Source of the DNA: Liolophura sinensis
Lineage: Eukaryota; Mollusca; Polyplacophora; Chitonida; Chitonidae
Assembly (NCBI RefSeq): GCF_032854445.1
Contig: NC_088295.1
Coordinates: 16,295,385-16,359,384 of the forward strand
DNA: 64,000 nucleotides
Direction of reading: 5' to 3'
The notes below the pieces were generated by a model. That model saw nothing but the letters and a program-made list of their open reading frames with translations, ran no database searches and had not been told where the DNA came from. The translations under genes were made by a program, and so were the position numbers. Positions 1-64,000 of the stretch are shown here, piece by piece. Every line of letters begins with the position of its first letter. The first letter of the stretch is position 1.

Positions 1-340
1 CCTATTGGTTTTAAATACATGTATATCTGTAAGAGGCCTTGTCATGGTTGTAAAATCCACAAGCAAAATGAAATGTGATAATTTAAACTAGTTAATGTGG
101 TGAAGGTCAGAGTTGTGGAAAATATTTTGTACCATGGAGTTAAATCTATAAACGAATATTATGATGGTTTCATAGGTAATATGGGATATATGTAATATGC
201 CAGCAACTTCGGAGTGAAGCGGTTAAGGTTTCTTACCGAGAAGTATTTTTTCACCTTTCTTCCAAAACTGACCTGCGGTGGGGAAGAGGGTTGTAGTAAC
301 GCCGGTCGACGTCTGTATGGCAAGCAGTTTTAGTTTTTAA
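1..340. other. Non-coding stretch, nothing recognised
   Basis: AT-rich sequence with no convincing exon, RNA gene or repeat that I can see. It precedes the GATATC minisatellite. Confidence 0.5.
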
Positions 341-354
341 ACCAATTTTTTTGA

Positions 355-585
355 TATGTTAAAATAATTTAAGATATCTTGAATTCATTTAATGAAATGA
401 TGAAATGGATTTAAGGTATCTATTCATTTCATGATATCAGGAATACTAACCATTTCTTAATACCTTAAATTCAGTAGATGATATCATTAAGTAAATTAAT
501 GATATCTTGAATTCGATTCTTGATATTTTGAATTCATTTCTTGATATCTTGAACTCATTTCGTGATATCATTAAATATGGCGAAT
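355..585. repeat. Degenerate 21-bp GATATC minisatellite, block 1
   Basis: The hexamer GATATC (or a one-base variant) recurs, and the clearest consecutive units (about 510-575) are 21 bp, of the form ttgaattcatttcttgatatc. Units vary in the spacer but keep the GATATC core. Early copies are too decayed to count reliably. No coding potential is apparent. Confidence 0.75.
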
Positions 586-884
586 CTGTCCCAGACTTCA
601 TTGCGTAGACCGCACGTGCGATTTAACCAAAAATGGCGGGCGCACATGTATATATAGTCCCTGGGAACTTTTTGGATAATCGTTATACCTCTTGACTAGA
701 GGGTTAATTTTTACAGATTTTTCTGCACTTTCCAGTTTAATATTCTTATACTTCAAAACTGTCAGCACCACGTTGCCCAACAGCATACAAGTTACGAAAA
801 TATAGCATAAAATTTAACTTTTATAGCATAAAAGACTGACAAATACTCTTTAGTAGGAATCACGGGGTTTCCTTTCGTCCACTG
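586..884. other. Unique spacer between the two minisatellite blocks
   Basis: The GATATC periodicity stops here and resumes after about 300 bp. I see no gene; a short minus-strand open frame (598-786) has no recognisable motif. Confidence 0.5.
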
Positions 885-1215
885 TATTTAATGATATCTT
901 GAAATGAATTCGTGATATCATGAATTGAAAGTGTGATATCTTGAAATGAATGCGGGATATCTGGAAATGACTTGAAGATATCAAGAAACAGACTACATTT
1001 ATTGATATCTTTAACTCTGTTCTTGATGCCTTTAATTCTTTGACATCTGTAAAGTATTTCACGATATCTTAAAAACGCACCAACATACCAGTGGATGATT
1101 TCAAGATATCAGAAATGATTTAATGGCGTCAAGAATGAACTAGTGATATCTTAAATCATTTTAACGTATCAGAAATTTGTTACTGATATCGTTAAATGAA
1201 GTCAAAATATGAAAT
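885..1215. repeat. Degenerate 21-bp GATATC minisatellite, block 2
   Basis: Four consecutive clean units from about 892 to 975 each begin with GATATC and are 21 bp long, for example gatatcttgaaatgaattcg followed by t. Flanking copies are more decayed and some are spaced irregularly. Consensus and core match the block at 355-585, so the two were probably one array split by an insertion or by local loss. Confidence 0.75.
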
Positions 1216-2627
1216 AATTGGGTTTAAAAAGTAAAACGGCTTCCCATGCGTCCATCTGTCCACGTTTTTGTAAACACTAATATGTTAAATGCTCTTGGCC
1301 AGTGTCACCAGACTTATGCCACATGAATGCTTAGGAAAGAACACTTTTCATTTTCGTAAAATGACCTTGACCAATGCTTTCAGGGTCATTGGAGTCTTGA
1401 TTTGAATTTTGTTAGTCTTCCAAACAAGATATGGCCTGGATTCTTGAGGCAGTTTTCATCATACTTGTATCACATGCAGTTTTCTATTTGACTGTGACCT
1501 ATTTTTCAAGGTCGTTTGACCTGTGCCTCCATTACCTTGTATAAATACACTGTCTCTTGCAGCTGACGTCCCAGGTGCATCTATTGGATTGTACGATATG
1601 TTATCTTTGCCTGTGACGTCTTGATGTCTTCTACCGATAAACCCGACCATTGCAGCGGTGTACAAAACCAATCTAACAAACGATAAATGTGCTCCACCTG
1701 ATAACTTTGTTACGCTAGTATCCGTGCCTCATTCATTCAAATCGACAGACCTCTGAAAATGGCAAATCGCGAAGAGACCAGTGCTATAAAACTCTATGCT
1801 ATCTTAAACAGACCATGCTTCATTCATTCTGACGAAATATTCTTCATTTAGCCGCCAGATGGCTGTCCTCATGGCTGATGATAAAGATTACTTTTTTTCT
1901 CCACAATGCATCTATTTCAGCTTATGTCCAATGCGGAACATATGTTAATATATACATATATGACTCTGATCTCAAAACTTTGTAAGTGTGTAATACGCGC
2001 CCCCATTATCTCGATGCGTGGTCTCGATCATGTTAAAAGGGGTTCCAGTCGAAGCATATTGAGGATTAAATAAAGGTTTGGAATTCGAATTGAGTGTTCT
2101 TATATGAAAGTTGCATTTTTACGTAAATCAAATAGAAATATTTATGTATTCACACAAGTTAATAATATGGAGGTCTCTATTCTTTTTAGGTACGAGGTGA
2201 AAAACAAGTAATTGATACCCACCTGAATTTAGGTCTGTGACGTCAGTATTACTTAATATTTGAGACTTTGGTTTGTTTTATGATGTGCATGCAGCGTTCG
2301 CAGTTCTTTTATTGAATTATGTTTAATATTTTGAAATGTAACAATGCCACAAGATGTGAACCTTGAGGACGATTGAGTTGTGCACATAGACTATGTTAAA
2401 TATCTCATTATTATATCAAAAGTTTTTATGAAGAAATGTTTTCTGTTGATTTTATTTACCGAGAAGCGTATACATGCATGTGAAGAAAGTACGGGCGCTG
2501 GTCAAGAAGCTTTATTTAGTTGGTTTGTCTGAATATTTCACTTGTCAGTAAATGATCGGAGCCGTATTACTTAGTGAGGAGTCGGAGCCATGCATCTGAC
2601 AAACCTTAGGCATATATGGCTGCACCT
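1216..2627. other. Intergenic sequence, possible old dispersed repeat
   Basis: No exon is supported. Around 1360-1540 there are paired 'gaccttga' and 'caaggtc' style words (for example at 1361 and 1508) of a kind often seen in dispersed molluscan repeats, but I cannot delimit an element. The rest is featureless AT-rich DNA. Confidence 0.35.
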
Positions 2628-2735
2628 TGGAGGCAGTTTCAGTTCAGAGCTGGATTCGAACACGCAACCTCATCGGTGAACCACCGCACTGGTTCCAAAG
2701 CATTGTACTCCATTTGGCAAGCCAGCCAGCAGGGC
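2628..2735 (-). mobile_element. tRNA-derived SINE-like remnant
   Basis: Read on the minus strand, the segment has a tggc...aaatgg stretch resembling an RNA polymerase III A box and, downstream, gttcgaatcc, a near-perfect B box. There is no intact tRNA cloverleaf that I can fold. It is best read as the head of an old tRNA-derived SINE; a degenerate tRNA pseudogene is the alternative. Confidence 0.45.
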
Positions 2736-2917
2736 GTCTCTGCTATACTTTGCAGAGACGACATTGTCCTGTCAAAGGAATGACTATATCGGCAATATTG
2801 CAGCTATACAATGGCGAGCTGACACCTTAAATGGCATCTTGCCTTAGTATCAGCTCTAGGTTTATCTTTTTGCACGTAGAGGTAATGACCGTGCTTCTTG
2901 GAGGGTCTCCCTTTCTT

Positions 2918-3130
2918 ATGTGAACCAAAGTCGAAAATATTTGCGTCGAGCATCTTCTGGCACGTCAGAAATGTTGAACATTGCGTTGTCAGGCGCGGCG
3001 TAGATATCTCTGTCGTCATAAATGACATTTTTAGTCCAATGAGAATGAGTCTTGGCGTCACGTGGTGAACCAACAAAGGTTACTACGCCAACTCCTGGCG
3101 GCATTCTTCCCAGCTGATGACAATGGCGGA
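2918..3130 (+). promoter_or_regulatory. Upstream copy (A) of duplicated promoter
   Basis: This aligns by eye with 4343-4546. In order it holds a degenerate CRE (tgtcgtca, 3011), a CCAAT box (3036), an E-box CACGTG (3059), and a three-codon upstream ORF (atggcggaatga, 3123-3134) whose stop overlaps the main start at 3131. Spacing between elements matches the downstream copy to within 1 bp (25/26, 23/23 and 72/71), which argues that the arrangement is functional or recently duplicated. Promoter activity is inferred. Confidence 0.55.
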
Positions 3131-3222
3131 ATGATGAAGCGTAGGTCTATCATCATTTCAACCCTTGTTCTTGTATCAGTTGGGTTGATAGCCGTTCCGT
3201 CCATAGGGATTCTCTTTAAAGG
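3131..3222 (+). CDS. Alternative or relic first coding exon (copy A) of the pseudokinase gene
   Basis: An ATG at 3131 opens 92 nt ending at a strong donor (gg|gtaagt). The encoded 30-residue peptide starts MMKRRS and is dominated by a hydrophobic stretch (ISTLVLVSVGLIAVPSIGI), a signal peptide or signal anchor. It is the same length and phase as the exon at 4547-4638 and very similar in sequence. No matching exon 2 lies between the copies, so it can only act by splicing to the exon at 4891 (the phase is compatible, phase 2) or it is the leftover of a tandem duplication. I cannot distinguish these without transcripts. Confidence 0.5.
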
Positions 3223-4342
3223 GTAAGTTTATTGTTTTTCCCAATGCCTTGCTGCATTTCGTAGGCTGTAGGTATTTTATTATCCTAACTTACGGATTTT
3301 ACCAAATATACATAGAGTTTAAATAGGCTACACCGGAAAAAAATGCCCTGCACCGACATGGAAATAATTTTGTGAAATTGCATCACTGGTTCGCAAATTA
3401 GTAAATCAGAATAACGGTTGAAACTTTGATTGACGAATTCAAGAAGTGAAATTTTCTACTTTCTGAGGCATTACATGTCAAACTGATAATTAATGTCGGG
3501 TTTTCAGCTTAAATAACTTGGATGCTCCGTGTTAAGATGTGTTTGGTGTAAATACACTCCAGCTGGATGCAGGTTACATCTACATGTATCTATATCTATC
3601 GCATTGCGATGGCTGAACCTCTGCCTAGTAATAAGTTACTTGTCCCCTAACGGGATTCATTCCGGAGCCGAGTCGTATATATATATAAGACTTTAAAAAT
3701 GTTAACCTTGGCACAACCTATATGGCTTCGCGTTTAGCATACAAAATGACTATTTTGGCCAAGCACTGGGGGCCTAGTGCGAGTGTTGGTGGACCGTCAT
3801 TGTGTCCTCGAAAGGGGTTCCAGTGAGGCATGCAGCACTAATTCGGCATTGGAGACATGGAGACGCCGTGGTGGGCGAAATGTCCTTGGAGGTGACTATA
3901 ACCTCAACCAAACGAACACACGCTGGTCATTTCCATAGGTCTATGCAAGCTGTGAATTCTTCAGTTAAATTGCCTGTCGACTGAATCATTTGTAGGACCT
4001 TACAAAGGGCAATCATTGTCCTTCCTTGGATTGGCGTTTAGTATAGGCACTGTACATTCGGTCCTCCGTCACTTCTGTGGAATCAGATGATTTGAAACAT
4101 AATTAAATGTCTTCCAACACCTAAGTTTTGAAGGGAAATTCAGAAATTAAACGTCAATATAAATAGGTTCACGGGTTACAGGTTATAAATAAAGTTTAAT
4201 CATCTATAGATTCGTGCCTTCACTCGTGGGAAAGAGCCTATATAAATGATAAACTGTCCTTTGGTATATATATATATATATCTGGATTCCATAAAAGCCT
4301 TTTAAAGAAGCAATCCCCGCAGTTCTTTGAATGTTCCTTTTC
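3223..4342. other. Spacer between duplicated first exons
   Basis: No second exon of a duplicated gene is visible here. A short plus-strand open frame at 3802-3984 has no recognisable motif. The segment ends near a (TA)9 run at 4264-4281. Confidence 0.4.
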
Positions 4343-4546
4343 TTGTGCAGATTGAAAACATTTGCGCCAGATATGACTGCATGTCTCAGCAACAACGGTA
4401 TATAGCTGGCAGTGTGTACAAGTCTCTGACGTCATAAACAAATTTATTCGGGCCAATAGTAATACACGTTTGCGTCACGTGATGACCCAACAAAGGTTAC
4501 TACGTCAACCATTGACGTTATTCATCCAGCTGAAGACAATGGCGGA
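4343..4546 (+). promoter_or_regulatory. Downstream copy (B) of duplicated promoter
   Basis: It contains a perfect CRE palindrome TGACGTCA (4427-4434), a CCAAT box (4453-4457), an E-box within gtcacgtga (CACGTG 4476-4481), and the three-codon upstream ORF atggcggaatga (4539-4550) overlapping the main ATG at 4547. The CRE is intact here but altered in the upstream copy, suggesting this is the primary promoter and the one able to respond to CREB/ATF factors. The E-box fits bHLH-Zip factors (USF, MITF or TFE type). Function is inferred from motif arrangement. Confidence 0.6.
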
Positions 4547-5238
4547 ATGATGAAGCGTATGTCTTTCACCATTTCAAGCCTCGTTCTCGTATCTGTTGGG
4601 TTGATAGCTGTTCCATCCATAGGGCTTTTCTTTAAAGGGTGAGTTTGTTATGTTGACCAGTGACTTTATTGGCTTTAACTCATGTATTTCATCGATTAGC
4701 TGCTTGGTGAGGCAAAACACGTAGGCCTTATATATAGGCCCATATAAGCATATATGGTGTACATCAAAAATATTAACGTAACGAAGTTTTGATGTTTCCA
4801 TATACGGTACATTAATTTGATTATCTCCCTTTACGTCAAGGGAAGGGAAGGGAATAGTTCCATAATGTTTCCATATGTGTTAAACTACAGGTGTCAGGCA
4901 GGAACGCGAGGTCTGTTGGACTGGTTACCGCAGTCGTGGGATAGTCAGATCTCGGCTGACGGGCCATGCGAGCCAGGTAACATCCTACAGGAGGGCTACA
5001 AAGCCCTGTGCCCTGCAGTTGAGAGACGAAGTGCCATCAAAGATTTGCTCGACAACATTGGATTTTTCGGGTATTGTGTGCACATACATATTCATTAACT
5101 TAACAATCTTCTACGTTATATAATTCAATACCTAATAGTTTGTTATTCATAAATTGGTGTTTAATAGTTTAATGCCGCACTGTACTCTTCCCATATAGGG
5201 TTAACTTTCACAAACTTTGCAAAGTATATCATTATACG

Positions 5239-5300
<62 letters not shown>

Positions 5301-8201
5301 TATTACTTTAATAATTTACTTTGTAAAGGAAATCGAGGCCTGCACCTAAAATGCCTACCTTGCATTCGGTTTACAGGCCATACCCTAATGAGCCACAAGA
5401 ATTAGCCATTTGTCAGTATACCAAAAGTACGTGGGCATGGTTAACAAATAAACTAGTTCGAGGTCGTGACGCCATCTTGGATCTCCATCATGCGGTTAAT
5501 GAAGCCTTGGTAGAACACTCGATAAGTGTGGAGAATCTCCTGGAATTATTCATGGAAAATGCCAACTACGGACTTCAGCACATATGGACACTAACCCACG
5601 AAGTCGGCAGACAAGTATCCCTGCCCATCGTTAGCATTCCAAACCAATTCAATAAACAATATTCACAGCTTTGGCAGTTCTATGCAAGTGTCCGAAACAG
5701 GCAAAGTGCATGGACATCTGGGAGTTCATATTCCAACACCACCATTGTCACGGAAATATCGGGATTCTCTCGAGCTGTTAAGACAGGCAACTGGAAGTAC
5801 GTCAAGAAAGGGTACTTATCGCCTGTGTGGCACTATATCACGTGCGAGCCCGCCAAGGTAAATGAAAAGAAAAATGTATTCAAACAGAATCATTTGAAAC
5901 CGAAACCCTATGTCACATCCGGTGGCGCGGAGGTGAGCTCGGCACCAGAAACAGAGGCGGCGATAACGCGTGACAAGCACGTGCCAGTTCCTAATGATGA
6001 TTGGGAAACGGTTACTCGTGGTTACGTCATCAAACTGTTCAACATTGTAAGGAATGTTCCAGAAGAAACTGAAATAACCGTAACTAATGAGACACACGAA
6101 AATCTGACCCAGAATGAGGATATTGTCAAGATAGCAGTGCTGGAGGAGGATGTTAACCGGGTCACAGCGAAAGAAGAGGAGATCAAAGAAAGCGAAATGG
6201 ACATACCGGAAATAAAGGAACCAGCCGGTGAAAATCAGACAACTCAAAATGACCAGGCACTGAGTACAGGCAAGTGATCAAAGTACTTAAGAATCCATCA
6301 TACTCCATGGAGGAGAAACTCGCGTGTACTGTAGATTTTCCTTTAGCGGATCGCAATCTTTCTTAGTTCCTCCAGTTTATTTAAGAATTACTTTACGAAA
6401 CTACACATGATTAAGAGGTACAATGAAAAGTATTCTCATGATCCAACGAAGAGAAATGGGTCAGGATCTGTATCTATGCTATGTTGTACATTAAATCACG
6501 AACGCACGCCATGCAATAATGTTGCAATTATTGCAATAATATGCTTCTGCATGTCATTCTGTACTGGTATAAAAAGGGTTTCAAATCCTGACGAGTCATT
6601 TTAGACTAATCATTTTGCCTTATTGTTCGTCTTTTGCAGACGACGTGTACAGTCGGAGTCTAAAGAGAGTGTTGTTGGAATCGCTGATTGCAACCGTCTG
6701 TGCTTTCAGTTTATTCATCTTAGGTAAGTGCAGCCATCTACGTTCGACGGAAAAAACAAGGATCGACTATTATTAAGTTGTCTCGTAGAAAGATGCACAT
6801 CAGAAAAGCCAAATTTGTATGCACTATCTCAAAGACAATGAACTAGGCGCGGCATTGTTTCACTTCCGTTTTGGGTTAATATAACGTTTGTGGATGTGAG
6901 GATTGTGATATTATCCAGGGGCTGAGAAAATCCTACTACTAAAACCATGTTGTTGTTGTTCCTACAAAGATGGACACCAAAACAGCAAAAGTCTATTGCT
7001 ACCGGCATTTAGATAAGCAGCACTGTGGTAACAGTGATAACCAACTATGCAGATGCGATATTCGCTAAGTTTATCCAACTATATCCAACCAGGGCCCCGT
7101 GATCACGGAGCGATCTTAGACTTAAAGTCAAAATTTCAAATTATTTTAAAATTGTTATTTCTTACGTAACAAGGTCAAAATATTGTTTGACAACGTAAAT
7201 TGGGAACCAAGTTTAATGATTGAAATTTTGACTAAAACTTAAGATCGTTTCGTGATTTTTGCTGAAGTGATCCAGTGGCTTGATAGTGGAAGGCCCACGG
7301 TTCAATATACTCAAATAGGCATGAAATCTTCATTACAGGTGTTGTCTTCCATTGGCTTGCGCGCACCAAGAAGTTTGGTTTCAAATGGCCAAGTCTAGCG
7401 CAGATCGTCATCAACAAATATAAGCCTGTCCGGCTCATCAAATCTACGGCCGAATTCAACACTTTCCACATGGTCTGCAGAAGAACCAGTCAAAACGTCG
7501 CCGTCAAATGTCTTCAGTCCGCCTCGACAAGTTCAGCGAAAACGGAGATCGTTAATGAACTCCAAACTCTGAAACGAATTCGCCATCCAAACATCATATT
7601 ATTGATGGACTGTATCCGGTCTGGTCCTCGATTCTGTCTCGGGACGGAGTACGCTGCATACGGTAACCTTAAGGACGCCGCACTAAATCCTGCCAAACCG
7701 TTCGCGTTCTACCAGAAGATCGCCGTATATCGACAGATTCTGGAAGCTGTTGACTGGATGCACAAGTCAGGCTGGGCCCATCTAAATGTACGACCAGGCA
7801 GTGTGATGGTCTTCGATCAGTGGTCACAGGTGAAACTGTCCGGATTTACGGCCGCCGTGGAATACTACAAAGGGGAGCTTTGCAGCGACTACAAACTCCA
7901 CCCTATGTGCGCGTCTCCTCAAGTGATCATCAGACAACCCTATGATCCTGTCAAGACAGACCTTTGGGCTTTAGGTTGTCTCCTTTACTTCGTATTTACT
8001 TTGAGGGAAATCAAGGACTCGGAAGCTGCGCTACGTCTTGCCAGAGTTGTCTCCCGCATGGATTATGAGAGAAGATCAGGACACGGCCTCAACTTGCTCA
8101 AGTTGTTGGCCGATCTTCTCGCCATTCATCCAGATAACCGGCCACAGTTGGCCGAACTCATAGAGATCATCAATAATTTAGACGAATATCCGCATCTGTA
8201 A
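4547..8201 (+). CDS. Single-pass transmembrane pseudokinase, about 703 aa (5 exons)
   Basis: Exons are 4547-4638, 4891-5070, 5377-6269, 6640-6723 and 7339-8201; phases agree at all junctions and sum to 2112 nt. Residues 7-28 are a hydrophobic signal peptide or anchor. Residues 30-388 form an unrecognised ectodomain with several Cys and N-glycosylation sequons, acidic and Glu/Thr-rich near its end. Residues 403-422 are a TM helix. The C-terminal part, from about 440, is a protein kinase fold: VAVK keeps the ATP-site Lys (K473) and the alpha-C Glu is plausible at E490. The HRD motif reads HLN (Asp to Asn 566), the catalytic-loop Asn is Ser571, and DFG reads GFT (585-587). The DxWxxG motif is retained (D624). 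Loss of both catalytic and metal-binding Asp predicts a pseudokinase signalling by scaffolding. I do not recognise an orthologue. The 2-kb intron-rich layout and terminal AATAAA support a real gene. Confidence 0.85.
5247..5303. repeat. (TA)n microsatellite in intron 2 of the pseudokinase gene
   Basis: A near-perfect TA dinucleotide run with a single TG interruption, about 70 bp upstream of the exon 3 acceptor. Confidence 0.9.
6270..6639 (+). other. GC-AG intron 3 of the pseudokinase gene
   Basis: The donor is ACAG|GCAAGT, a GC donor otherwise perfect to consensus, and the acceptor is cttttgcag. Only this splice joins the acidic ectodomain frame to the TM exon. If the intron is retained the frame continues for two more codons and stops at 6275-6277 (tga), giving a protein without TM or kinase domain. 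Confidence 0.75.
6724..7338 (+). other. Intron 4 of the pseudokinase gene
   Basis: Donor g|gtaagt and acceptor cattacag; it separates the TM exon from the kinase-domain exon. I see no further feature. Confidence 0.7.
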
Positions 8202-8450
8202 ATAGTTTATCGATGCAAAATTCTGACCATACACGAGTATCCTGTAAAATTACTCGACATTGCTGAATTAATAACGTCACCGTCAAAAACAGAAAAAAAC
8301 ACATTTTAATATGAATAGGATACTTGATATTTAATGAGCGCTGCAGAAATCGTGTCAGTGACAACAGTTCACGGATTGCCATCTCCCAATAAATGTAAAC
8401 ACAGCTAGTAACGCATGATACAAATGTAGAGTATATCTAAGGAAATGTCG

Positions 8451-8456
8451 AATAAA
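8451..8456 (+). terminator. Poly(A) signal of the pseudokinase gene
   Basis: AATAAA lies 250 bp after the stop codon, giving a short 3' UTR. Confidence 0.75.
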
Positions 8457-29100: not shown

Positions 29101-32100
29101 TGTTATGAATGCATTTAAATATTGAGCATATAAGTATCTACATATGTACCAGATTTTGATCACTTTTAACCGAACCCCTGTTTAATTTTAGGATTTCACT
29201 TGAGTTCCACCGTAATACCTCCTCAAGGTCAAGGGTCGTTTAATGTTGCTGTTGTGTTTGATCGACGGCGGATCTCATCCTGCAACTGCACGTGTAACAG
29301 CACCCCATCATGGTGTGCTCATGTGGTAGCCCTGTGCCTCTACAGGATACACCAGGTTGGTAGATTATATGACAGAAGAGGAGTAAATGTAAAGGAGTAA
29401 AAGGTGTGAGCTCAAATTTGGCCTTTGACAGGATTCTGCCACTCTTCACTTCTTGTGGAGCCTTGGTTGCAAGAAGCAATCAACTGCCCTTGTTGGCCTG
29501 GTTGTGCAGTGACATGTTTACGAGAAACACTTGTATTCCACCAATATAGGTTGGGCATATCAGTTTGTCACATGTGAGGAAGTTCTCAGTAATTTACCAA
29601 AGGCCATTGGTTTACCCCAGGCACTCCATTTTCCTCCACCCATAAAAGTGAACACCATTGGACAAGTGAAATACATTTTAGTCTGGCTTTAAGCAGTAAT
29701 CAGATGAATAAATCAAAGACTAAAAGATTTATCAGATAGGTTACCAAAGTCTTATGATGTGTATGATTTTACTACATTTATCTCGGGTCATACAGGAATT
29801 TTTATTTGCTTTACCATTGCAAAATTGTTTCACTTACTATTTTTTAGGCCAACTCGGTGTGTCTGAGAGCCCCTGTGTCAGAATCACTCTCACGCTTACA
29901 GAGAGACCAGCTGCAGAAATTTGCTCAATATTTAATCAGCGAACTTCCTCAACAGGTAACGCACACTTTCATGTATCCTGATGAGTTAAGCAAGCCTAGA
30001 TCAGTTGAGAACAGTACTTTGTAGACACATTTACACTGAATGCAACAACAATGTTCTCAGCTGTAACATATGAGAAATAGAGTGCACTAAAGGGGATAAC
30101 ATCAGGGTGATGTGATTGTTGCCAAGCAAAGGTAGTAATTTTACCATTTCGCATGGTCTTGGCATTAAACTTTGTGTGGGTGTAGTTGTCACGTCCACTG
30201 TGAATCTGCATGAATCTCTTGTTATTCTCCAAGATAATTTAGCTATATCTCCATTCTATTTCCTCATTTTTGTCATTGTTGTTAATATTCTGTACTTACC
30301 ACAAATGATAAATATCTTTGTTCCCTTTGTAGATTTTACCTACAGCACAGCGGTTGTTAGATGAACTCTTGTCCTCCCAGCAGAATGCCATCAATACTGT
30401 TTGTGGTGCACCAGGTAACACCTCTGCAGTGTGTTGTCAGTGTTATTTTTTAGGGATCTCAGCTTTTACCTCTGTGCATCTATAATGAATGTAATTGTTT
30501 ATTTATGGCAATATTCAGATAGAAATTAAATTGTAATGTTAAGACAGTCAGCCATCCTTGGAAGAAGCAAGCTGATGTCAGTGACATACTTGCACTGTGG
30601 GATGCTGTAGATATTTTCAGTCTGTTGGGTTCAGCACTGTATTCTTCATCTCTTTAACGTTTTTTATTTTTCGTAGCACATTGCGAAGTGATGGGTTATC
30701 GAATTGAATGTGTAGGTTTTGTCATGAAACCTCAATCTGAAGATAGATTGGTGTATAAGAATGATCTTTATCAGTGATGACAAAGATTAATGAGTAAACC
30801 CTGGAATGCAGTTAATATCTTAGTGTCTGCTTAATTTATACAGATCCAACAGCTGGACCCTCAGCCAGTGAGCAGACATCCTGGTGTTTAGATGCTGACA
30901 CACTTCATGAAAATGTGAAGAAAACTCTGATCAAGTTCTGTGTGCCCTCCCCCATGGTTTTCAGGTAAGTGTTTGTAGTGAATAACTTTATCCTTCAACA
31001 CTGAGTTTTGCATTACCAGAATTGATCTTTATTATTTATTGTCTCTTTATTATAAGTTTTCTGCACATTCATCAAACTACATATTTAAGGAATGAATTGA
31101 AATGTAAAAAAAATCTCAATATTGAATTCTGATTGCTTAATTTCAATATGTACATGTTTACATATGTTTTGCCATAGTCAATATGTGAACATTTAGAGAA
31201 ATTATAGGATCTTCTTGCCACTGCAGTGATGTGAACTACTTATCATCGACGGCGCCACCTGCAGCTGCAGAATGGCAGAGTTTGCTGCGACCGCTACGTG
31301 GTAGAGAGCCTGAAGGCATGTGGAACCTGCTGTCCATTGTAAGAGAGATGTACCGTAGGAATGACAGCAATGCTGTGCCCTTACTGGAGATTTTGACAGA
31401 CGAGGTGCTGCAGTGTGAACAGGTAAGAAAATAGGATCTATTCCTTGTATCTCTAAAATTAGCAATTTGAATGCAACACATGCATGAATTTACCTTCACA
31501 TATCCTGCAATCAAGAATAAAAGGAGGACAAATGTTTTTTCACCCTAGTTATATGCTGTGCATGTCTATACTGGTTTATTGTATAAAAAGTTTTCTAATT
31601 CTGCAACTGCTTTGAAACTATAGTATAATTTTCCAGTTTCAAGAGAAACAAAGTGGAATAAATCAGTGAGATGAAGGAAAAATTTGTATTGAACAGGGCC
31701 AACACCATGGTTGAGAAGGATTTAGTGTTAAAGAACAGGTTAACTTCCATAACTTTGGCAAGTTCTATAAAATTTGAAGATGAAATGATAATATTCTTAT
31801 GTAATGTTGAATCAAATATGTCTAGTACGCCAATGTTTAAATAAGTCAGCATTACACAAAAGTACATTTATTGTGTCCTTTGTGACTTCAGCGATGTGCT
31901 CTTGCATGATATCTTTCTGGCAAAAGTAGAAACAGCAGAAAACTTTCCATAGGGCCCTTCAAAAAATAAAATAGCAGTTTTAATTTTTTGCCATTTTTTT
32001 TGTTGCAGTTTGCAATCTTTTTTGCAGTTAAAAACAAACAGTGACTTTGTTTATAGTTAACAGTAGTTATATAAATCCCTTTCTTTCTCCATTAGATCCT

Positions 32101-35100
32101 TGTGTGGTGGTTTTCAACCAAAATCTCCTCCTCGTACCTGAACATGGCCAATCACATCAGTCGTGGAAATGGTAACAACAGCTCAAGTGGCACTCAGCAC
32201 GCGGCATCAAGTTTGTGTGACGAGCTAGTGACACTATGGAGACTTGCTGCTCTCAACCCCAGACTCTCCCCCATACAGAGAGAAGACCTGGCTGCTAAGT
32301 TCAAAGAGTGGCACATATCCACGATAGACAAGGTGCGCAAAGCTCGCGGAACCAGTTATGGCGGAACACTAAACAATATGAAGAAGAATGACGTGGAGGT
32401 GTTCCCAGGGTTCAAACCCTCACTGGAGGCGTGTCAGATGGACTGGAGTGATTACCCCATTACAGGGGTCACCTACAGTGAGAATGGCTGCTCACATCTC
32501 CAGTACAACTTCAGCCGCAGTCATGATGGAGACATGAAAAAGCCATCAAGGGTTCAAACTGTCACAGTCTGTTCTGAGGACCTTATTAGTACAGACAACA
32601 AAACAACGATAGTTCAAGGCCCAGGAAAGCTAGCAGAACACGCGCTAGCACGGTCTCAGGAAAAACAATCTAAGTCACACAATAGTTTGCGAAACTTCTC
32701 TCATAGTGACAGATCTCAAAATGACGGTGCTTGTAGCTCAGGGTCTGAGGGGTTTTGTGAGCCTGACAGGGCTGACCCTCTGTTTAGAGACTCTGATTCC
32801 AGTCTAGACATTGCTAAGGATCATGGTGTCGTACAGTACACACCTGGCCACTGTGTTTATCATACCAACTCTGGCCCTCATCCTCCAACTCACAGTCGGG
32901 ACCCCCAGTCAACTGGTCCATGTGAAAGAGTTGGGGCACAGAAAGCGGCAGATGCTGACCCGCTGGATGTAGACTCAGACACCTCGTGCCAGGGAACGCT
33001 AGCCACTGCAGCAGCTCCCTCACAGAGCTTACCAAAACCTGCTGTGGACCATTCTATGTCAGACACACAACACTCCAGTGACGAGTTCCTCATTTACTTC
33101 TATGATACCAAAGCTAAAGTACCAGATTCAGACAAGAAGAAAAAAGACAAAACTGAAGAACCAAATTATTTTGCTGGTTTAAAAGCCATCAATGATTGTC
33201 AAGAGGTATTGATGGAATATGGAATTTTCATTTCTGCATGTACTGTGAAGGGGATGTTCGCATAGTTCACATGCACAGTTGTTAAATCTGTCACACTATT
33301 CAGAATCTGTAATTTCTCCCTCCGATAAGTACAGCAGCCGTACTTTTCTAAATGTGTCTGGCAGATCTGAATTGTCTAGCCAAGCACATTTTGGCCATGT
33401 CACTATACATAAAGAATCAGAGCTAAAACACACTGCACACTTCCTACTCCCTCCCACCGCTAAACACAGAAATAGTTTATTATGTAACACTAGAGTGTGC
33501 AACCCTTTTAGTGGAAGAAAGACCCCATAACTGTACATTCCTGAATAATAAAGTCCTCCACGCTTTGTTCCTCGTACTTTTTTATCCAGGAATGTATAGT
33601 TACAAAGCCTTTCTCCACACTGAACAAGAGAGAGGGAAGGATGTAGGGTAAGAAATGCCTGTCCTGATGATACTTTCCTGTTATATTGGAGGCCATTTGC
33701 ATTCTTCCCAGTTTAGATATCAGAAAACAAATCTTTTCTCTTGCATTCTCCAATGTGGAACTGTCATTGTTCTCCACAATGAAAACAAATTTCCATTGAT
33801 AATAAACTTAGTTTGACTTTCAGATTGTTGTTCATGATGATTAAAAATGACAACATTCACATAACTGGCATAAATGTAACTGGCACATCAAAAGATCAGA
33901 AGAAAAAATAACTGGGAATAACTAACCTCCCAGGCCCAGAAGAAGTTTGCATGAAGTCTGAGCCAACTGTTTCTTTGATGATATATCTGATCTTAAGGTT
34001 TTTATTATTCATGATCTACACAGTACTATGAAATTAGAATTACTTCAGGGCTGAAATAAACTGCTTTTGTGGCAGACATGTTTTACAGGTTGGAAGTGGA
34101 AGGAAAGCTTTAACATACCTCTGCTAGATTCATATGCGTGTCACTGTAGTAGATTGCCAGTGAACAGTGTTTTAAATGTAAATTGCTTGATGGTTTTCCA
34201 ATGTTTATGTCATTGGCACAAAAATATTGAAAATTCTCCATCTTCATATTTTTAGAAATAACAAATGAACATTGTGTTCAATAAATATATACGAATACAG
34301 ATGTGTTAATAAGTACATGAATATGTTGATGTAGGACCATGCCCTTTTCTTCCAATGCCATTGTGCTGTGTACAAACAGATGACTTCCACTTTGAGCCAT
34401 GTTGTATCTCTAACTGAAGAACGCCCGTATTGTTTCTTTCATTGTTTGCACTGTATCATGGAATTCTTTTAACATGGCCACTTTTACAGGTTGCAAAGCC
34501 AGTTGTTTTGAACTAAAATCACAACCTCTATATTACATGTAGTTTCATCAGAAGGCCATTATCTAGAAGTATGCAACTTCCCTATAGCCAGTCTCCAGGG
34601 CTCTTTACATTTTTCTTTGATCTCTAACACGTTATGTGATGTGTCTGCAAAGCCATGTATTTTTTTCTGTCTATTGTGCAGCATATGCTTGAGAAACGTC
34701 TGAGGCACGGTGGGGAAAAATGGTTCAGATGTGGGTGTGTTGCAGCAGACTTAAAAAAAAGATGACAATAGAGAATTTGTAAAAGGACAACAATGTATTT
34801 GAAAGTAATTGTTTTAGAGTTGCTTGAAAATAAGAAAACAATCATTGGGTTCTCAACGGTATAGCAACAATGATTAGCAAAGTTGTAGTTTTTAAGTATA
34901 GAGTTTCGGTTTCAGGGTGTGACAAGTTCTTGTAGCAGCCGTTTACAAATGGCTTTGACCTTAACAGTTTCTCAGCACATTAGATTTCCCATGATTCCGT
35001 TCACAATTTCCACCCAAGAGGTTGGCATTTTTCTCCACCAGATGGCGCAAGCTACAGACAACATAACATATGTAATGTACTGTGGAGACAAGCTATAGGG

Positions 35101-35894
35101 AAGTTGAATATTTATAGGTAATGGACTCCTGGTTTCATTGAAAATGGTGAATGAGATGCGGATGCATTGTCCATTGATCTTATTGTACGTGTTGAATTTC
35201 CCATCACTTTAAACTTATTTATATATTTGATTGGTTTTATGCCTTACTCAAGAATATTTCACTTGCACGATGGCAACCAATATCGTGGTGAAAGGAAACC
35301 GAGAAAACCTGGGGGGATCCCACAGTCATCACATTATTAGACCTTGCACTGCGGAAAGGACCATGATGGTTTTGTGCTGTTTAATTGATTTGCATCTCAG
35401 TGCACAGTAATGTAATGGTGATATTTGAAATCATCGTTTTACAGCTACATAATTCATAGACATGTCAATAGCAGTGTTATTTACTGTTGACTTATGGACA
35501 TACTTGTTCTTCTTTTCAGAACCAGTTTGCTAGAGCTGAGGCACTTCATGCACATGGTCACACCAAAGAGGCTAGCAAGCTGGCCAAGCAGCTGGCTGAG
35601 GATATGTTAGACAATCCACCTGACCTTCTGGCCGAGGCAGCCAACCTGGCAGCTATCAAGGGCAAGGGTCAGTCTCCACACAAATTCTATATCTCAACAT
35701 TTCAAGAAATTTTGAAGTACTTAAACTTTCACTGAACAGTTAGCCTCTTCTTATCTGTAATGTGGGGGATGGTGGTGATGAACACATTAATAATTACTGG
35801 TTGATAATGGTATTGTAAGTCGACAAAGAAGTAAGGTCTTTATGAAAATTGACAGTCTTATTTTTTTTATATGGATAGATCAACTGTAAGTGTA

Positions 35895-35963
<69 letters not shown>

Positions 35964-38900
35964 TATTCATAATTCAGTTTGGTTCCCTATTGGTAATTAG
36001 GAAAGAAGAAGAAGGCCCAAAATGTGATCAGCATGCTAGCCAGTAACACCCTGTCTAAGGCAGCTTTCTTGTGCAGTGTGTTGGCGGAGGACCCAGACTG
36101 TCACCACCTTGCTTTCAAGATTGGCATGTTTGGCCTGGAAATGCCCAGACCACCTGCCTCTTGTAAGGCGTTAGAAGTAAGACAGGTGCTCAATACTTCT
36201 CCTATGACCTTCAGGTTGCTCCAAACACTATGGGAAGACATAACTTGTAACATGTAGCTGTATTTGTGCTCTGTAAAACTGAATGTGATGACAGTTTGAT
36301 GTATACATGTAATGCTTAAATTAGCCTTTTCTGTCAGAAGCAACTAATTGCTAAAACTGCATTCGAAAGGTTTGATTTGTCATATCAACAAATGCAACAA
36401 GTCAGATGAAAATGTGACAAGTTGTTTTGCATAAAATTTATACCTTTAAATGACAAATGGCAAACTGTGAACCCATTTAATAGATATGCTAGAGAATTCC
36501 TCGGAGAATCATCATACAATTGGCTTACCTCTCATTTTTACAACTTGACATTTGTTTCAGGTTAAGCTGGCGTATCAGGAGTCTGAGTTGGTGTCCCTTC
36601 TGAAGAAGATTCCATTGGGACCGAGTGAACTGACTGTTTTACGAGATAGAGCTGAACAGCTAAGAGATGGCAAACTCAAATCTAGGGGAGAAGCTTTACT
36701 ACCTCTAATGTTGGCCAGTTTCATCTTTGACTCCTTATGTTTGCCAAGTAAGTCTTGGTTGTAGCTCTTGTTGTATTAGTGCAAGGCTCAAGAGTTTTCT
36801 CCCCTTGATAAGGTGTAATTCTGATATGCCTTTGTCCAATTTAATTTAACACAGATTAACATCTATCATTCTTGTTCTCTTCATACAGTGGTTTTTAATA
36901 TGCATACCACCATATCTTGAAATCTATCATTCTTGTTCTCTTCAGACAGTGGTAATGACCCAGGAGTCTCTCACCAATGCCATCGCTGTTAGTTCAAGTC
37001 CCGCTCATGCTCGCTTCCTCTATGGCCGTACGTGGGAAGGTCTACCAGCAACCTGCGGATGGTTGTGGGTTTCCCCCGCGCTCTGCCTGGTTTCCTCCCA
37101 CCATAATGCTGGCCGCCGTCGTACAAGTGAAATATTCTTGAGTACAGCGTAAAACACCAATCAAAATAAATAAATAAATGAAATGTTCTGTCAAATTTAG
37201 TTCAGGGGCATGAAAGGATGAAGAGATCAGACTTTAACACTATTAGAAGATTGCGAATCTCCATCCAGAGCTTGAAATTAATACAGAATAACTGATTTGC
37301 CCCTTGAGTGACCTATGACGCAGAGAATGTCAGGTCAGTGGGACTTCAGTGGTTTATAACCTGTTTGTAACTGTGATATGTTTTATCCTGCAGTGTTCCC
37401 TGTGAATGGTTCAAACAGCAGACCTCCTAGCCGCTCTGTACAGGTGACAGCCAGGTTACCCAGTGATGAGAAACTAGGCTTTGAAGCTGCTGTAGCAGCA
37501 CTAGGTGAGAAGAATTAAGATTTGGCCTTTCAGTGTACATGTAGTTGAATGAATTCGAAAAATCTGTTAAATTGATTTTGAAAACATGCTCTTGAATATA
37601 TGAGTACAATCTTAAAGGCACAAGTTAAAAAGTCCATTTCAGTGTGAAATTGTACTGGTGATAAAGTATTTTGTTTACTAAATCTGAAAACAAAGATTTC
37701 TGAATATATCGTCTGATGCTTTTTAAAGTATGCTATTATCAGAAAGTAAGATTTTCTCTTGTGCTGAATGTGTTTTCGGTAGTCATTTGTTTGGTATCCT
37801 GTTTGGCAGGTTTGAAGGCTAATGTGTCTGAGGCAGATCATCCATTGTTATGTGAAGGAACTCGCAGGCAGAAAGGAGATTTAGCAATTGCCATGCTGGT
37901 TCACTACAAAGATGACCAAGTCAAACTCAGCAAGGTAAAGTATGGCCTAACTGGCAACTGTGTAGAAATCCAGATATATACTTCATGTGCAGTAACAATA
38001 ACATGGAAAAAAAGATTCTTAAGCTGTTAACTAGTCTTTATTATATAACCTAGTTCCTGACAAAGCTCTTTCATTTGGCCACTCTTTCTTTTACTGTTAG
38101 ATCATGGACAAACTGCTGGATAAGGAGGTACACCAGCTGTTTAAGGCCCCTAGTCTAACCACCTATTTGGCCAGCAAGTCCACTGGATGTACAGCTGTAT
38201 CAGTAGCTACAGGAGAGACACGAGCAGGACCTGAACCTGCCTCACCTGCCCGATCTGCCCAGTCCGCACCCCCTGTTGGGGCTGTGGGTGAGAATGAGTC
38301 CATGTCACCCCCAGAGGTGCGTCCCAGTCAGCCTGAGAGCCAGGAGGCCACACCCACCAGAGAGAGTAACCATTCTCTGCTAGCTGCCCGTAAGGATGGG
38401 GGAGCTGCTGTGCACAGTCTTGAGTACCTGAATTTAGAGCAGTCTCGGGGCCAGCAGGGCCCAGTCACCAGTGGGGCCAGGCCAAAAACAACCTACCCTG
38501 CCAGGTATAACAGGTACGTTACCATTGGTGCCCTTTAGTTGGTACATATTTTTTTTACATTTGTTCAGGGCTTTATGGCAGATTTTATGCTTGTTTGCTT
38601 AAAACTTGGTGATCCACCAAATATTACATGTATGCAGTTTGTAACCATTGCCTATATTGAACAGGTTATTCACATGCATTGATAAAGTTGTGTTTTCTTG
38701 TGTTCAGCGGTAAGGACACAGAGGACAGTTCGGCATTGGAGGAGGAAGGAGATGATTTCAAAGCTTTAGAAGCCAAACTCAGGTGTATGAGCATGAAGAA
38801 GAAGCCTTCACAAGGTATGAATGGGAATTGTCTGCACATGTATTTTGTTCTGGTGGTTACTGGTATAAACTTACATGGAGATCGACACGCTAGTAAAATA

Positions 38901-41900
38901 TTTGTTTTAATAAAAATTACAGTTCTTGATAATTGAAAAAGGAGTACCAGGCTAAACAGTGGCTTTGTGTCCTCAGCTCATACAGTTATTAGGAGTAATT
39001 TGGGTTTAATTGACAAAGGGATTGAGGCAGTGTGAAAATGAAAATATGTTTGGTTTTAGGAATGGCAAGTATTGACAGCAGTGCCCCTGAGACTACCTCT
39101 AGTGACAACTCCCCAACACTTGTCCGACGTCACTGGGCAAAACATCAAGGGCCTGGCAGTGACAGTGGAAGCAGTGGGAAAAGCAGTGATTCCATTGGCT
39201 CTAGTAGCTCTGGAGACAAAGGACCGAGGCCTAAAATCAGAGACGAGGAGAGGTGGGTTGTCTCCCTTGATCCATATTTGTTCGTCCTGTTGATAATATA
39301 AGCTCGTCTGTGTCACGCAGAGCCAGTTAACCTCCAGATTGTTTAGTGGCTTAAATTGTTTTGTGAATTACATATTAGATCTGCATCAACCAATTAAGTA
39401 TCAGTGTGATCATTGCTCAGTGATTAGTTCTGATATTTTTTCATACACAAATAACCTTTTCCTGTTTTGTGTCTTTTATTGTAACTTAAAAACATAAGGC
39501 GATATCGTGTGTGACATAAATTTTATTAAATTGGAGAAGATGTTTAATTGACTCTTTGCAGTATGATAATATGTGTTCCCTGATTACTGGTATTAAATGA
39601 TGCTATGTAATTTTACATCAGATGCTTGCCTTTTCTGTTGCAGTCCTGTATGGTCTGTCAATAACAGGGTAATACCCCAGCTAAATTTGGATTCGAGAAG
39701 CTCCACTCCAAACATCAAGGGACTCAGGTGAGAGTGTATTATTTACCTTTCTGACTTTAACAAGAAGGACATGTAAACATTTCTGAAAGAAACATGTGTC
39801 TAAGTCTTATTCTTGAAGTTTTGTAGTGATATGGATTATTTCCATTATGATTCAAATATTTGTTGAAGGCTGTTTAGATATTTTCTTTGGTTTTAAATGA
39901 CTATGTGTTCATGTATTTTCTGTTCTGTTCTGTTCAAGATTGTTGTTGTGTTTTAATCAGGTACAAAGGTAAAAACAGGGTCATGCCTACTATTCCAAAT
40001 CAACCAAGTGAGGCTTCTGCTCACTTCATGTTTGAGCTGGCAAAGACGGTGTTGACTAAGGCTGGAGGGAACAGCTCTACTTCTTTGTTTACCCAGCCCA
40101 CAGCTGCTAACAATCATACAGGCCCACACCGAGCTCTACATCTGTGTGCATTCCAGATTGGGCTGTATGCCCTTGGACTTCACAACTGTGTCTCGCCTAA
40201 CTGGCTGTCAAGAACATACTCTTCACATGTATCCTGGATCACAGGTAATTGGAGCTAAATGTTGAGCGGCAGTTTTAACGACTCTCGCTGCCTGAGAGGC
40301 AACACACCTCTAGCATAAATTACAGGGTGTTAAAGATGGAGGACGTTATGAACTCAACGATTTATGTCAGCTTTGCCGTTTTCAGGCTTTGCAAGTCTGG
40401 CGAGAAAAAATCGCAAAATTATGCAGCAGGCACCACCAGATAGAAAAAAATGTGCTCTCTTCAGCCTATAGTGTCATGTTTCTAAGTTTTTATCTCCTTT
40501 AATGTTTTTTTATTGATGAGAGGGTACCCTCTCTGGGTCAGATGGTAAAATAGCTTCTTCGCTGCTTTTGTTGCACCACTGAAATCACATGTTCAAACCT
40601 GCTTCAATTGTGGCTTTAAGTTGGAGGGGTTGTCTGATGTAAGTACTTGATGAAGAGATGATGATTTAATTTGGGCACTCTGGTTACCTCCACATATATA
40701 CCGGCAGTCATAAAATTGAAATGTTGAACACTAATCAAATAAGTATGAAAATACATAATTATCGATATCTGTTTCAGGTCAGGCTATGGAGATTGGGGCA
40801 CCAGCCATCAACATCCTGATAGAAACCTGGGAAGGTCACCTGACCCCACCTGAGGTTGCTTCGCTAGCAGACAGGGCTTCTCGTGGACGAGACCCAAACA
40901 TGGTCCGGACAGCTTCGGAGCTGGCTCTGTCCTGTCTACCCCACGCTCATGCCCTCAACCCAAGTGAGATCCAGCGAGCTCTGATACAGTGTAAGGAACA
41001 GAGTCGTGATATGTTGGAGCGGGCATGCCTGGCTGTGGAGAGTGCTGCCAAGGGAGGGGGAGTGTACCCTGAGGTGCTGTTTGATGTGGCCAAGCGCTGG
41101 TATGATCTGTCAGAGCAAGCTTCAGCGGTCGGGGCTAGTGGAAATGTCCGTGACAGGAATCACAGGGAAGCCCATGCAGCAGGCGTTGACCACTCCACTG
41201 ACCAGCCTGCCGTGGCGCAACCTGAGATCCCTGTCCCTGTTGCCCCAGACAGGCCCAGCCCTACCAGCTCCCACTCCCAGATAGGGGCATTCGGTCAGCC
41301 GATTGTGTCCCAAGCCCAGATCTCAGCCCCCCAAGTTGTGCCTGTGGCTGGTCAGCTTCCCACCCAGTCCATGGTCATCCCTTACCCTATCCCACCAGGC
41401 AACCCATCACACCCCCAGCTACCACCTCATGCCTATGTTCCCTACAGTTATGTTCAGCCCATTCAGTCATTAGCACACCACTATAGTCAGCCTCACATTC
41501 CTGTCCACACACACAACATCCACCCAGCATATGTCACATACCCATACCAAAATCAGCCAGCATTCAGCAACTTACAGCCCATCCATAACCTCCCTCCAGG
41601 CCCCACCATGGTGTACCACCCATCTGCCACCCACTTACGCCCTCCACCCACAGCCATGCCGGTGTACACAAATCAGATCACTACTGCACAGACAATGAAC
41701 AATGCCAGTGTTACCCTGGCGTCTATCCAGCCAATGCACCCAGTGGAGCACCTGCTGCAACCTGTGGAGCAGCAGCAGCAGCAACAGCAACAATCGCAGA
41801 ACATCACTCCCCCACAGCCTATGTTACAGTCCACGGTGAGGAACCAGGCACAGATGAACTATCTTATGGCAGCCTATAGGGTAGGCATGTTGGCCATGGA

Positions 41901-62924: not shown

Positions 62925-64000
62925 TGTCACGGCGTTTGACAAACACAGATTTTGTTAGCGTGTGGCACTTTCAGATAAGTATGGGTACATCCAACATTTG
63001 TTTCGCAGATTTTACATCGTGTTTGTCTCACACAGGTTACAGTGTGAACCATGCCAGGCAGTTTGTAAGCTGTGTCACATCGTGTTTGCTAATAGCTTTC
63101 TTTAGTAGCAAAAAATGCAGGTGACAAATAAATTTACAACGGGAAGTATAAAAGGTGGTTTGTAACCTGTGTCACATCGTGTTTGCCTAACACAGATTAC
63201 AGCCAGAAGCATACAAGGCAGTTTGACACCTGTGCCACATCGTGTTTGCCTAACACAGATTACAGCCAGAAGCATACAAGGCAGTTTGACACCTGTGCCA
63301 CATCGTGCTTGCCTAACACAGATTACAGCCGGAAGCATACAAGGCAGTTTGACACCTGTGCCACATCGTGTTTGCCTAACACAGATTACAGCCAGAAGCA
63401 TACAAGGCAGTTTGACACCTGTGCCACATCGTGTTTGCCTAACACAGATTACAGCCAGAAGCATACAAGGCAGTTTGGAACCTGTGTCACATCGTGTTTG
63501 CCTAACACTGTTTACAACCGGAAGCATACAAGGCAGTTTGGAACCTGTGTCACATCGTGTTTGCCTAACATAGTTTACAGCCGGAAGCATACAAGGCAGT
63601 TTGGAACCTGTGCCACATCGTGTTTGCCTCACACAGATTACAGCCAGAAGCATACAAGGCAGTTTGGAACCTGTGTCACATCGTGTTTGCCTAACACTGT
63701 TTACAACCGGAAGCATATAAGGCAGTTTGGAACCTGTGTCACATCGTGTTTGTCTAACATAGTTTACAGCCGGAAGCATACAAGGCAGTTTGGAACCTGT
63801 GCCACATCGAGTTTGCCTCACACAGATTACAGCCGGAAGCATACAAGGCAGTTTGAAACCTGTGTCCCATTGCGTTTGCCTAACACAGATTACAGCTGAA
63901 AGCATACAAGGCAGTTTGACACCTGTGCCACATCGTGTTTGCCTAACACAGATTACAGCCGGAAGCATACAAGGCAGTTTGGAACCTGTGTCACATCGTG
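62925..64000. repeat. 63-bp satellite array, open at the window end
   Basis: From about 63160 to 64000 a 63-bp unit (acctgtgccacatcgtgttt, gcctaacacagattacagcc, agaagcatacaaggcagttt and a few more bases) repeats head to tail about 13 times with high identity. From 62925 to 63160 the copies are decayed and interrupted. Since 63 is a multiple of 3, stop codons are absent from several frames on both strands, giving artefactual open frames up to 288 codons. From 63476 the units alternate in a three-unit (189-bp) order. Confidence 0.9.

Follow-up and report, generated by a model that had tools for sequence, protein, structure and literature searches.

The gene at positions 4547 to 8201 encodes a protein with a kinase fold whose active site is catalytically dead by motif. 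We put the probability at roughly 60% that it belongs to a chiton family, small and old, of receptor-like pseudokinases with a single membrane pass, which would signal without catalysis in the manner of HER3, ROR and RYK. The window, that is, the whole stretch of 64,000 nt that was analysed, corresponds to C1:16295385-16359384, in which the gene occupies C1:16299931-16303585, and the genome searched comprised 609,464,459 bases in 632 contigs. Eight molluscan haemocyanin domains in a row are present in this genome, as is to be expected of a mollusc. In-silico splicing of five exons gave 2112 nt with a single terminal stop, coding for 703 aa. The features of the gene and of its immediate surroundings are as follows (positions in the window).

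3131..3222, + strand: second copy of exon 1, candidate alternative first exon, with the in-frame ATG and the phase-2 donor kept
4547..4638, + strand: exon 1, with the start codon, coding for a signal peptide or anchor (residues 1-30); donor GG/GTGAGT, phase 2
4891..5070, + strand: exon 2, N-terminal ectodomain module GCQ...W...C...C (residues 31-91), phase 2-2
5377..6269, + strand: exon 3, the remaining ectodomain (residues 92-388) with a hydrophilic stalk at its end; GC-AG donor at 6270
6640..6723, + strand: exon 4, transmembrane (TM) exon (residues 389-416, TM ~399-419), phase 1-1
7339..8201, + strand: exon 5, coding for the basic juxtamembrane segment and the pseudokinase domain (residues ~437-703), with the stop
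8388..8456, + strand: two polyadenylation signals AATAAA, at 8388 and 8451, 3' of the stop

The sequence-only reading of this DNA had arrived at a complete five-exon model, which proved exact, with K473, N566, S571 and G585 at the positions given there. The parts named there (signal or anchor, an ectodomain of about 360 residues, TM helix, kinase fold) are likewise present by sequence and model, the ectodomain measuring 358 residues. Introns 1, 2 and 4 are of the GT-AG type, and intron 3 is GC-AG (CAG/GCAAGT). Two alternative GT donors for intron 3, at 6228 and 6264, stay in frame with exon 4 and give 689 and 701 aa, respectively. Their use would remove 14 or 2 residues from the stalk that precedes the TM helix and change nothing else; thus, the uncertainty of the model is confined to the stalk.

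A 200-base block with the gene start is duplicated 1.4 kb upstream (3052-3250), with 81-86% identity and a spacing of 1416-1417. Compared with exon 1, the copy has 5 silent codon changes and 6 replacement changes (dN 0.095, dS 0.264). This is a hint, though no proof, that the upstream copy may be used as an alternative first exon.

Based on a search of the genome with the focal kinase domain, 28 matches were obtained. Six other loci stood apart with E values from 9.9e-59 to 2.2e-38 and 33-39% identity, the next match being at 6.6e-15. Two other family queries recovered the same seven loci, after which the values dropped to 3.2e-12 and 1.1e-10. The loci found by the genome kinase search, besides the focal gene, are listed below.

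C7:44.31 Mb: paralogue A
C8:25.50 Mb: paralogues B and C, a tandem pair
C7:48.43 Mb: paralogue D
C6:1.20 Mb: paralogue E
C6:1.187 Mb: locus F, a partial frameshifted copy, 97% identical to most of the kinase exon of E with a one-base shift

Locus F was excluded from the family counts, so that the six members referred to below are the focal gene and A, B, C, D and E. In a tree of 15 rows, including nine other kinases of the genome, a branch with a support of 100/99 separates these six from the rest. The frame of paralogue A ends before the end of the C-lobe. The sequence-only reading had known of no family with this architecture; the protein has a family of its own, with six modelled genes. Among the papers listed from a partial literature collection, judged by titles and abstract openings, none dealt with this family. 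The family may exist, unnamed, in public protein databases. Viral contigs and prokaryote genomes gave pattern hits alone (31 and 13 stretches, respectively), with no relative confirmed.

Paralogues A to E were each modelled with five exons, open frames and phases 2-2-1-1, the kinase domain lying in one exon that follows a phase-1 acceptor. This agreement in phase is partly built in, as the search for paralogue exons 1-3 used the phases of the focal gene alone, and other acceptors exist near the paralogue kinase exons. The strongest test of a common exon plan is the TM exon. With strict limits, a TM exon of phase 1-1 was found in four of the five paralogues (A, B, C and E), and the same stretches contained none in the 0-0 or 2-2 class and none on the reverse strand. 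As background, a 55 kb part of the window outside the gene gave, with these limits, one match over two strands and three classes. The TM exon of D was seen in unguided or loosened scans alone. Exon-1-like exons were present upstream in all five modelled paralogues, against a background of two matches in total (55 kb) at limits that all five pass. Exon-2-like exons, also found in 5/5, make a weak test, since the 2-2 class had a background of 4 and 5 on the two 55 kb strands. For D and for E the choice lay between at least two exon-2 candidates, and in A, B and D certain exon-3 ends were picked from among candidates. It should be noted that the limits of the exon tests and of the background test were set after the candidates had been seen. 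In the unguided scan, exon-2-like exons of phase 2 came up in B and D, and TM exons of phase 1 in B, D and E.

Direct comparison of the focal ectodomain with the paralogue loci by tblastn gave a best E of 0.44. When exon 2 and the start of exon 3 were aligned, 8 of the 15 family pairs scored at the level of <=1% of shuffles and 7 did not; A, B, C and E pass this test against the focal gene, whereas D passes with none of the other five. The case for ectodomain homology within the family is built on exon position, phases and these shuffle tests. Taken together, an exon plan common to the family, with its TM helix, is supported.

The two strongest 19-residue hydropathy windows of the focal protein are residues 11-29 and 401-419, and exon 4 was the sole TM-exon candidate found when the gene was scanned for such exons. 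AF2 placed a TM helix at residues 388-425, with a block pLDDT of 73-88 for residues 391-420. Four N-glycosylation sequons are located in the ectodomain (residues 211, 328, 333 and 377) and none in the cytoplasmic part. Sequons in the paralogue ectodomains are few (A 0, B 1, C 1, D 0, E 1), and A and B also have cytoplasmic ones. In the proposed receptor, the protein would sit at the cell surface with its kinase domain in the cytoplasm. The first hydrophobic segment of the focal protein is long and could be an anchor.

The ectodomain ranges from 129 to 464 residues across the six members. That of the focal gene had no Pfam match at E<=10, and its search alone against the PDB gave four chance-like matches at E<=10 (best E 0.14). 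A six-row ectodomain profile returned neprilysin at 0.41, which says little, the underlying alignment being poor and a second attempt no better for paralogue A. In the AF2 model built on a six-row alignment, in which the ectodomain was covered by the focal gene alone, this part was badly predicted (block mean pLDDT 26-52). No known fold was found for the ectodomain with Pfam or the PDB searches, though at this confidence of the model one may be present. Against the whole genome, the focal ectodomain gave six matches, all of them to the focal gene or its second exon 1. CLCC1 (MCLC), suggested by a resemblance, was considered as a source of the ectodomain and rejected: there was no Pfam MCLC match here (E<=10) or in the paralogues (E<=1), and the MCLC matches of the genome sit elsewhere, on C7.

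A signal, a non-cytoplasmic region, a TM helix and a kinase, arranged in this order, would also suit a sensor in the membrane of an internal compartment, the ER or similar, with a luminal sensing domain. IRE1 and PERK have such a plan, with a luminal part, a TM helix and a cytoplasmic kinase, and a position in the plasma membrane is not proven by sequence. However, Pfam reveals no second domain, such as an RNase, in the chiton protein, and a spread of 129-464 residues in the ectodomain is, in our judgement, unusual for a housekeeping ER sensor. We consider this reading unlikely.

In the cytoplasmic part, the Pfam annotation of the focal protein consists of Pkinase (99.5 bits against a cut-off of 31.7; residues 461-691) and PK_Tyr_Ser-Thr (74.9 bits), with no other family; Pkinase exceeds its curated cut-off in all five paralogues as well. 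AF2 with the six-row alignment gave a bilobal kinase fold over residues ~437-703, with a block mean pLDDT of 71-94 for residues 431-700, while prediction of the focal protein without an alignment yielded no usable model (mean pLDDT 35.2). The diagnostic residues are the following.

7506..7508, + strand: K473, ATP-site (VAIK) lysine, retained in 6/6 modelled family members
7785..7787, + strand: N566 in place of the HRD Asp (HLN), 6/6
7800..7802, + strand: S571 in place of the catalytic-loop Asn, 6/6
7842..7844, + strand: G585 in place of the DFG Asp, 6/6

The loss of the HRD Asp, the loop Asn and the DFG Asp, claimed by the sequence-only reading, is therefore real, but it is not restricted to these three residues. 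The GxGxxG glycine loop is absent in all six members, and the APE motif reads SPQ in the focal protein. The alpha-C Glu is kept in five of the six.

The retained residues leave room for a receptor whose conformation is set by ATP or another nucleotide, bound without hydrolysis. Such a switch would give a use to the invariant K473 and to the alpha-C Glu (5/6), for which there is no catalytic role to account. Yet the glycine loop and the DFG Asp are missing in every member, and the Lys-Glu pair may be purely structural, so that we hold this explanation to be quite improbable. Lower still is our estimate for an atypical active enzyme whose catalytic residues have been relocated and which carries out phosphotransfer or some other nucleotide transfer. 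The same Lys (6/6) and Glu (5/6) can be cited for it, and HER3, with HRN, is listed with an accessible ATP site in the excerpted text of PMC13259870. On the other hand, the HRD Asp, the catalytic Asn, the DFG Asp and the glycine loop are all lost in 6/6, and loss of the DFG motif is expected to preclude Mg2+ binding, as stated for one human receptor pseudokinase in the same excerpt. We regard activity of this kind as very unlikely.

Conservation within the family bears on why such a domain is kept. Lys, Asn, Ser and Gly at positions 473, 566, 571 and 585 are invariant in the six members, while members differ from one another in 56-69% of residues and, within shared codon boxes, in 55-80% of four-fold sites. 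NG86 yielded no dS for 13 of the 15 pairs. Among the nearest other kinases of the genome (nine alignable of ten fetched), the HRD Asp is present in nine, the loop Asn in nine, the DFG Asp in seven and the Lys in eight. Invariant columns of the family are concentrated at residues 560-587 (13 of 28, compared with 31 of 264 in the whole domain; p 7e-7), a segment whose limits were picked after the alignment had been inspected. Active kinases likewise concentrate conservation in the catalytic region, and the telling point is therefore which residues are conserved, namely non-catalytic ones, rather than where. As the substituted residues have remained fixed despite 55-80% change at four-fold sites, the comparison speaks for a catalytically dead domain under purifying selection. 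The suggestion that the domain is selected for a non-enzymatic role is thereby strengthened, with Asn, Ser and Gly in six of six genes and the invariant columns at the dead site.

That the locus is a sequencing error, a misjoined model or a decaying pseudogene can be dismissed as extremely unlikely: the exon joins were modelled from DNA without RNA, a frameshifted relative (F) exists and the C-lobe of A is shortened, but six open frames share the same substitutions and the assembly is built from HiFi reads (PMC11068029, seen in excerpt). Single splice sites, for example the GC donor of intron 3, could still be wrong. A chance origin of the focal frame is very unlikely because five paralogues have open frames and identical substitutions, and the same set of genes speaks against the single pseudogene that the sequence-only reading had named as a possible refutation. 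Judged by these sequences, this is an old, selected pseudokinase family, and neither a sequencing error nor a lone pseudogene.

With regard to the kinase group, a family profile compared with the PDB was closest, among the best 60 of 1107 matches, to SNRK (8e-29) and MELK (9e-28), and also to MARK, SIK3 and CaMKII; 59 of these 60 were non-tyrosine kinases and one was TYK2. Pkinase outscores PK_Tyr_Ser-Thr in all six members. Foldseek ranked SIK3 at the top for the AF2 kinase domain. VIA-align of the same model gave a Z of 24.4 and an rmsd of 3.0 over 250 residues to FGFR2 (5ugl_A), with SIK3 at 24.3; many kinases were tied within 1 Z of this top match, and the fold comparison does not separate kinase groups. 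We take the domain as CAMK-like, group membership not being proven. SNRK, MELK, MARK, SIK3 and CaMKII are soluble active kinases. The chiton proteins have the kinase fold in common with the CAMK group, which supplies their best sequence matches, but differ in being predicted to span the membrane and in being dead by motif. TGF-beta receptor kinases possess an Activin-receptor ectodomain and a GS motif; no such Pfam match was found in the focal protein (E<=10) or in the five paralogues (E<=1).

The closest analogy in layout is offered by the human receptor tyrosine pseudokinases, for which the excerpted review PMC13259870 names HER3, ROR1/2, RYK, PTK7, EphA10, EphB6 and STYK1. Like these, the chiton proteins would combine a single-pass layout, an extracellular part and a dead or impaired cytoplasmic kinase domain. 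According to the same excerpt, HER3 has HRN (Asp replaced by Asn), EphB6 has Ser for the loop Asn and EphA10 has GFG for DFG. The combination of Asn, Ser and Gly is seen in the chiton family and in none of the eight human receptor pseudokinases tabulated there. The chiton domain also differs in being nearer in sequence to CAMK kinases, in lacking the glycine loop and in having an ectodomain without a Pfam match. Receptor guanylate cyclases are likewise single-pass receptors, and their kinase domain is catalytically inactive (PMC4883820, on the oyster kinome), but the chiton protein has no cyclase domain (Pfam, E<=10) and ends 12 residues after the Pkinase match.

Based on the above, we suggest the following scheme for the proposed receptor-like pseudokinase. 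The signal peptide would route the fast-diverging ectodomain outside the cell, a single helix would span the membrane, and the CAMK-like, dead kinase domain would lie in the cytoplasm. A ligand or partner bound outside may then shift the pseudokinase to another conformation or dimerisation state; in turn, the pseudokinase would activate or assemble other proteins without phosphoryl transfer. It is most likely that the dead domain would act in this way, on partners, once the ectodomain is engaged. Precedents exist: HER3 is an allosteric activator of EGFR and HER2, and RORs bring signalling complexes together (PMC13259870); in plants, the kinase domain of the receptor EFR acts allosterically on its co-receptor BAK1 (PMC11259431). 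The latter is a precedent for allosteric action by a plant receptor, with no kinship of ectodomains claimed. By analogy with these systems, we presume that a ligand is bound and that the signalling is non-catalytic, by allostery or as a scaffold. Of the receptor role proposed earlier, the receptor-like order of parts stands, being modelled in five paralogues too, whereas the role itself (ligand, partner, surface) is one that we infer.

A broader interpretation, which we offer tentatively as a possibility, is that these genes represent an undescribed class of animal receptors. It would unite a CAMK-derived pseudokinase, a membrane helix and a quickly diverging ectodomain of variable length in a possible recognition system (immune, gamete or sensory) of chitons or molluscs, with signalling through a conserved non-catalytic surface at the dead site (HLN...S...VF..W..VKL[SA]GF).

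In the excerpt of PMC13259870, the review of human receptor pseudokinases treats tyrosine-kinase receptors only. A multigene family that uses a dead kinase of CAMK-like type would mean that the receptor-pseudokinase design has arisen independently. Furthermore, Asn, Ser and Gly fixed in six divergent genes provide a clean natural test of why a dead active site is kept. In our judgement, the family also supplies a well-delimited group of putative orphan receptors, their ectodomains unrecognised, from a mollusc class whose signalling has been little studied.

Several features were noted beyond the main pseudokinase model. The following features were found in the stretches L011/L012, L015 and L021 of the same genome (G000):

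C8:25507499-25508563 (L011/L012), exon 3 of paralogue C, encoding 402 residues of ectodomain
C6:1186900-1193000 (L015), approximately bases 71-893, minus strand, partial kinase-exon copy (locus F)
L015, roughly bases 1150-5760, upstream of this copy, 47-base units repeated in tandem over a long array
C1:16088000-16089200 (L021), about 207 kb before the window, kinase with altered motifs

A genome-wide search with a 355-residue piece of the paralogue C exon found no relatives elsewhere (next match at E 5.5). The locus F copy is frameshifted and matches paralogue E's kinase exon at 97% identity over most of that exon's length; no TM exon copy was found beside it in the 6.1 kb of L015. A single unit of the 47-base repeat is also present in L014.

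The window contains the following additional features:

32096-42102, + strand, exons of a ZSWIM8-like gene (Pfam TPR_ZSWIM8 and ZSWIM4-8_C)
63132-63899, tandem-repeat open frame, unit resembling CATSCLPNTDYSQKHTRQFDT, with zero Pfam matches over the cut-off
3052-3250, duplicated block (81-86% identity) containing a second exon 1 of the main gene

Based on its motifs (Tyr at the VAIK Lys position, GFG in place of DFG, HRD-type Asp retained), the L021 kinase is likely a pseudokinase distinct from that of the main gene. The second exon 1 keeps its reading frame and is a candidate alternative first exon.
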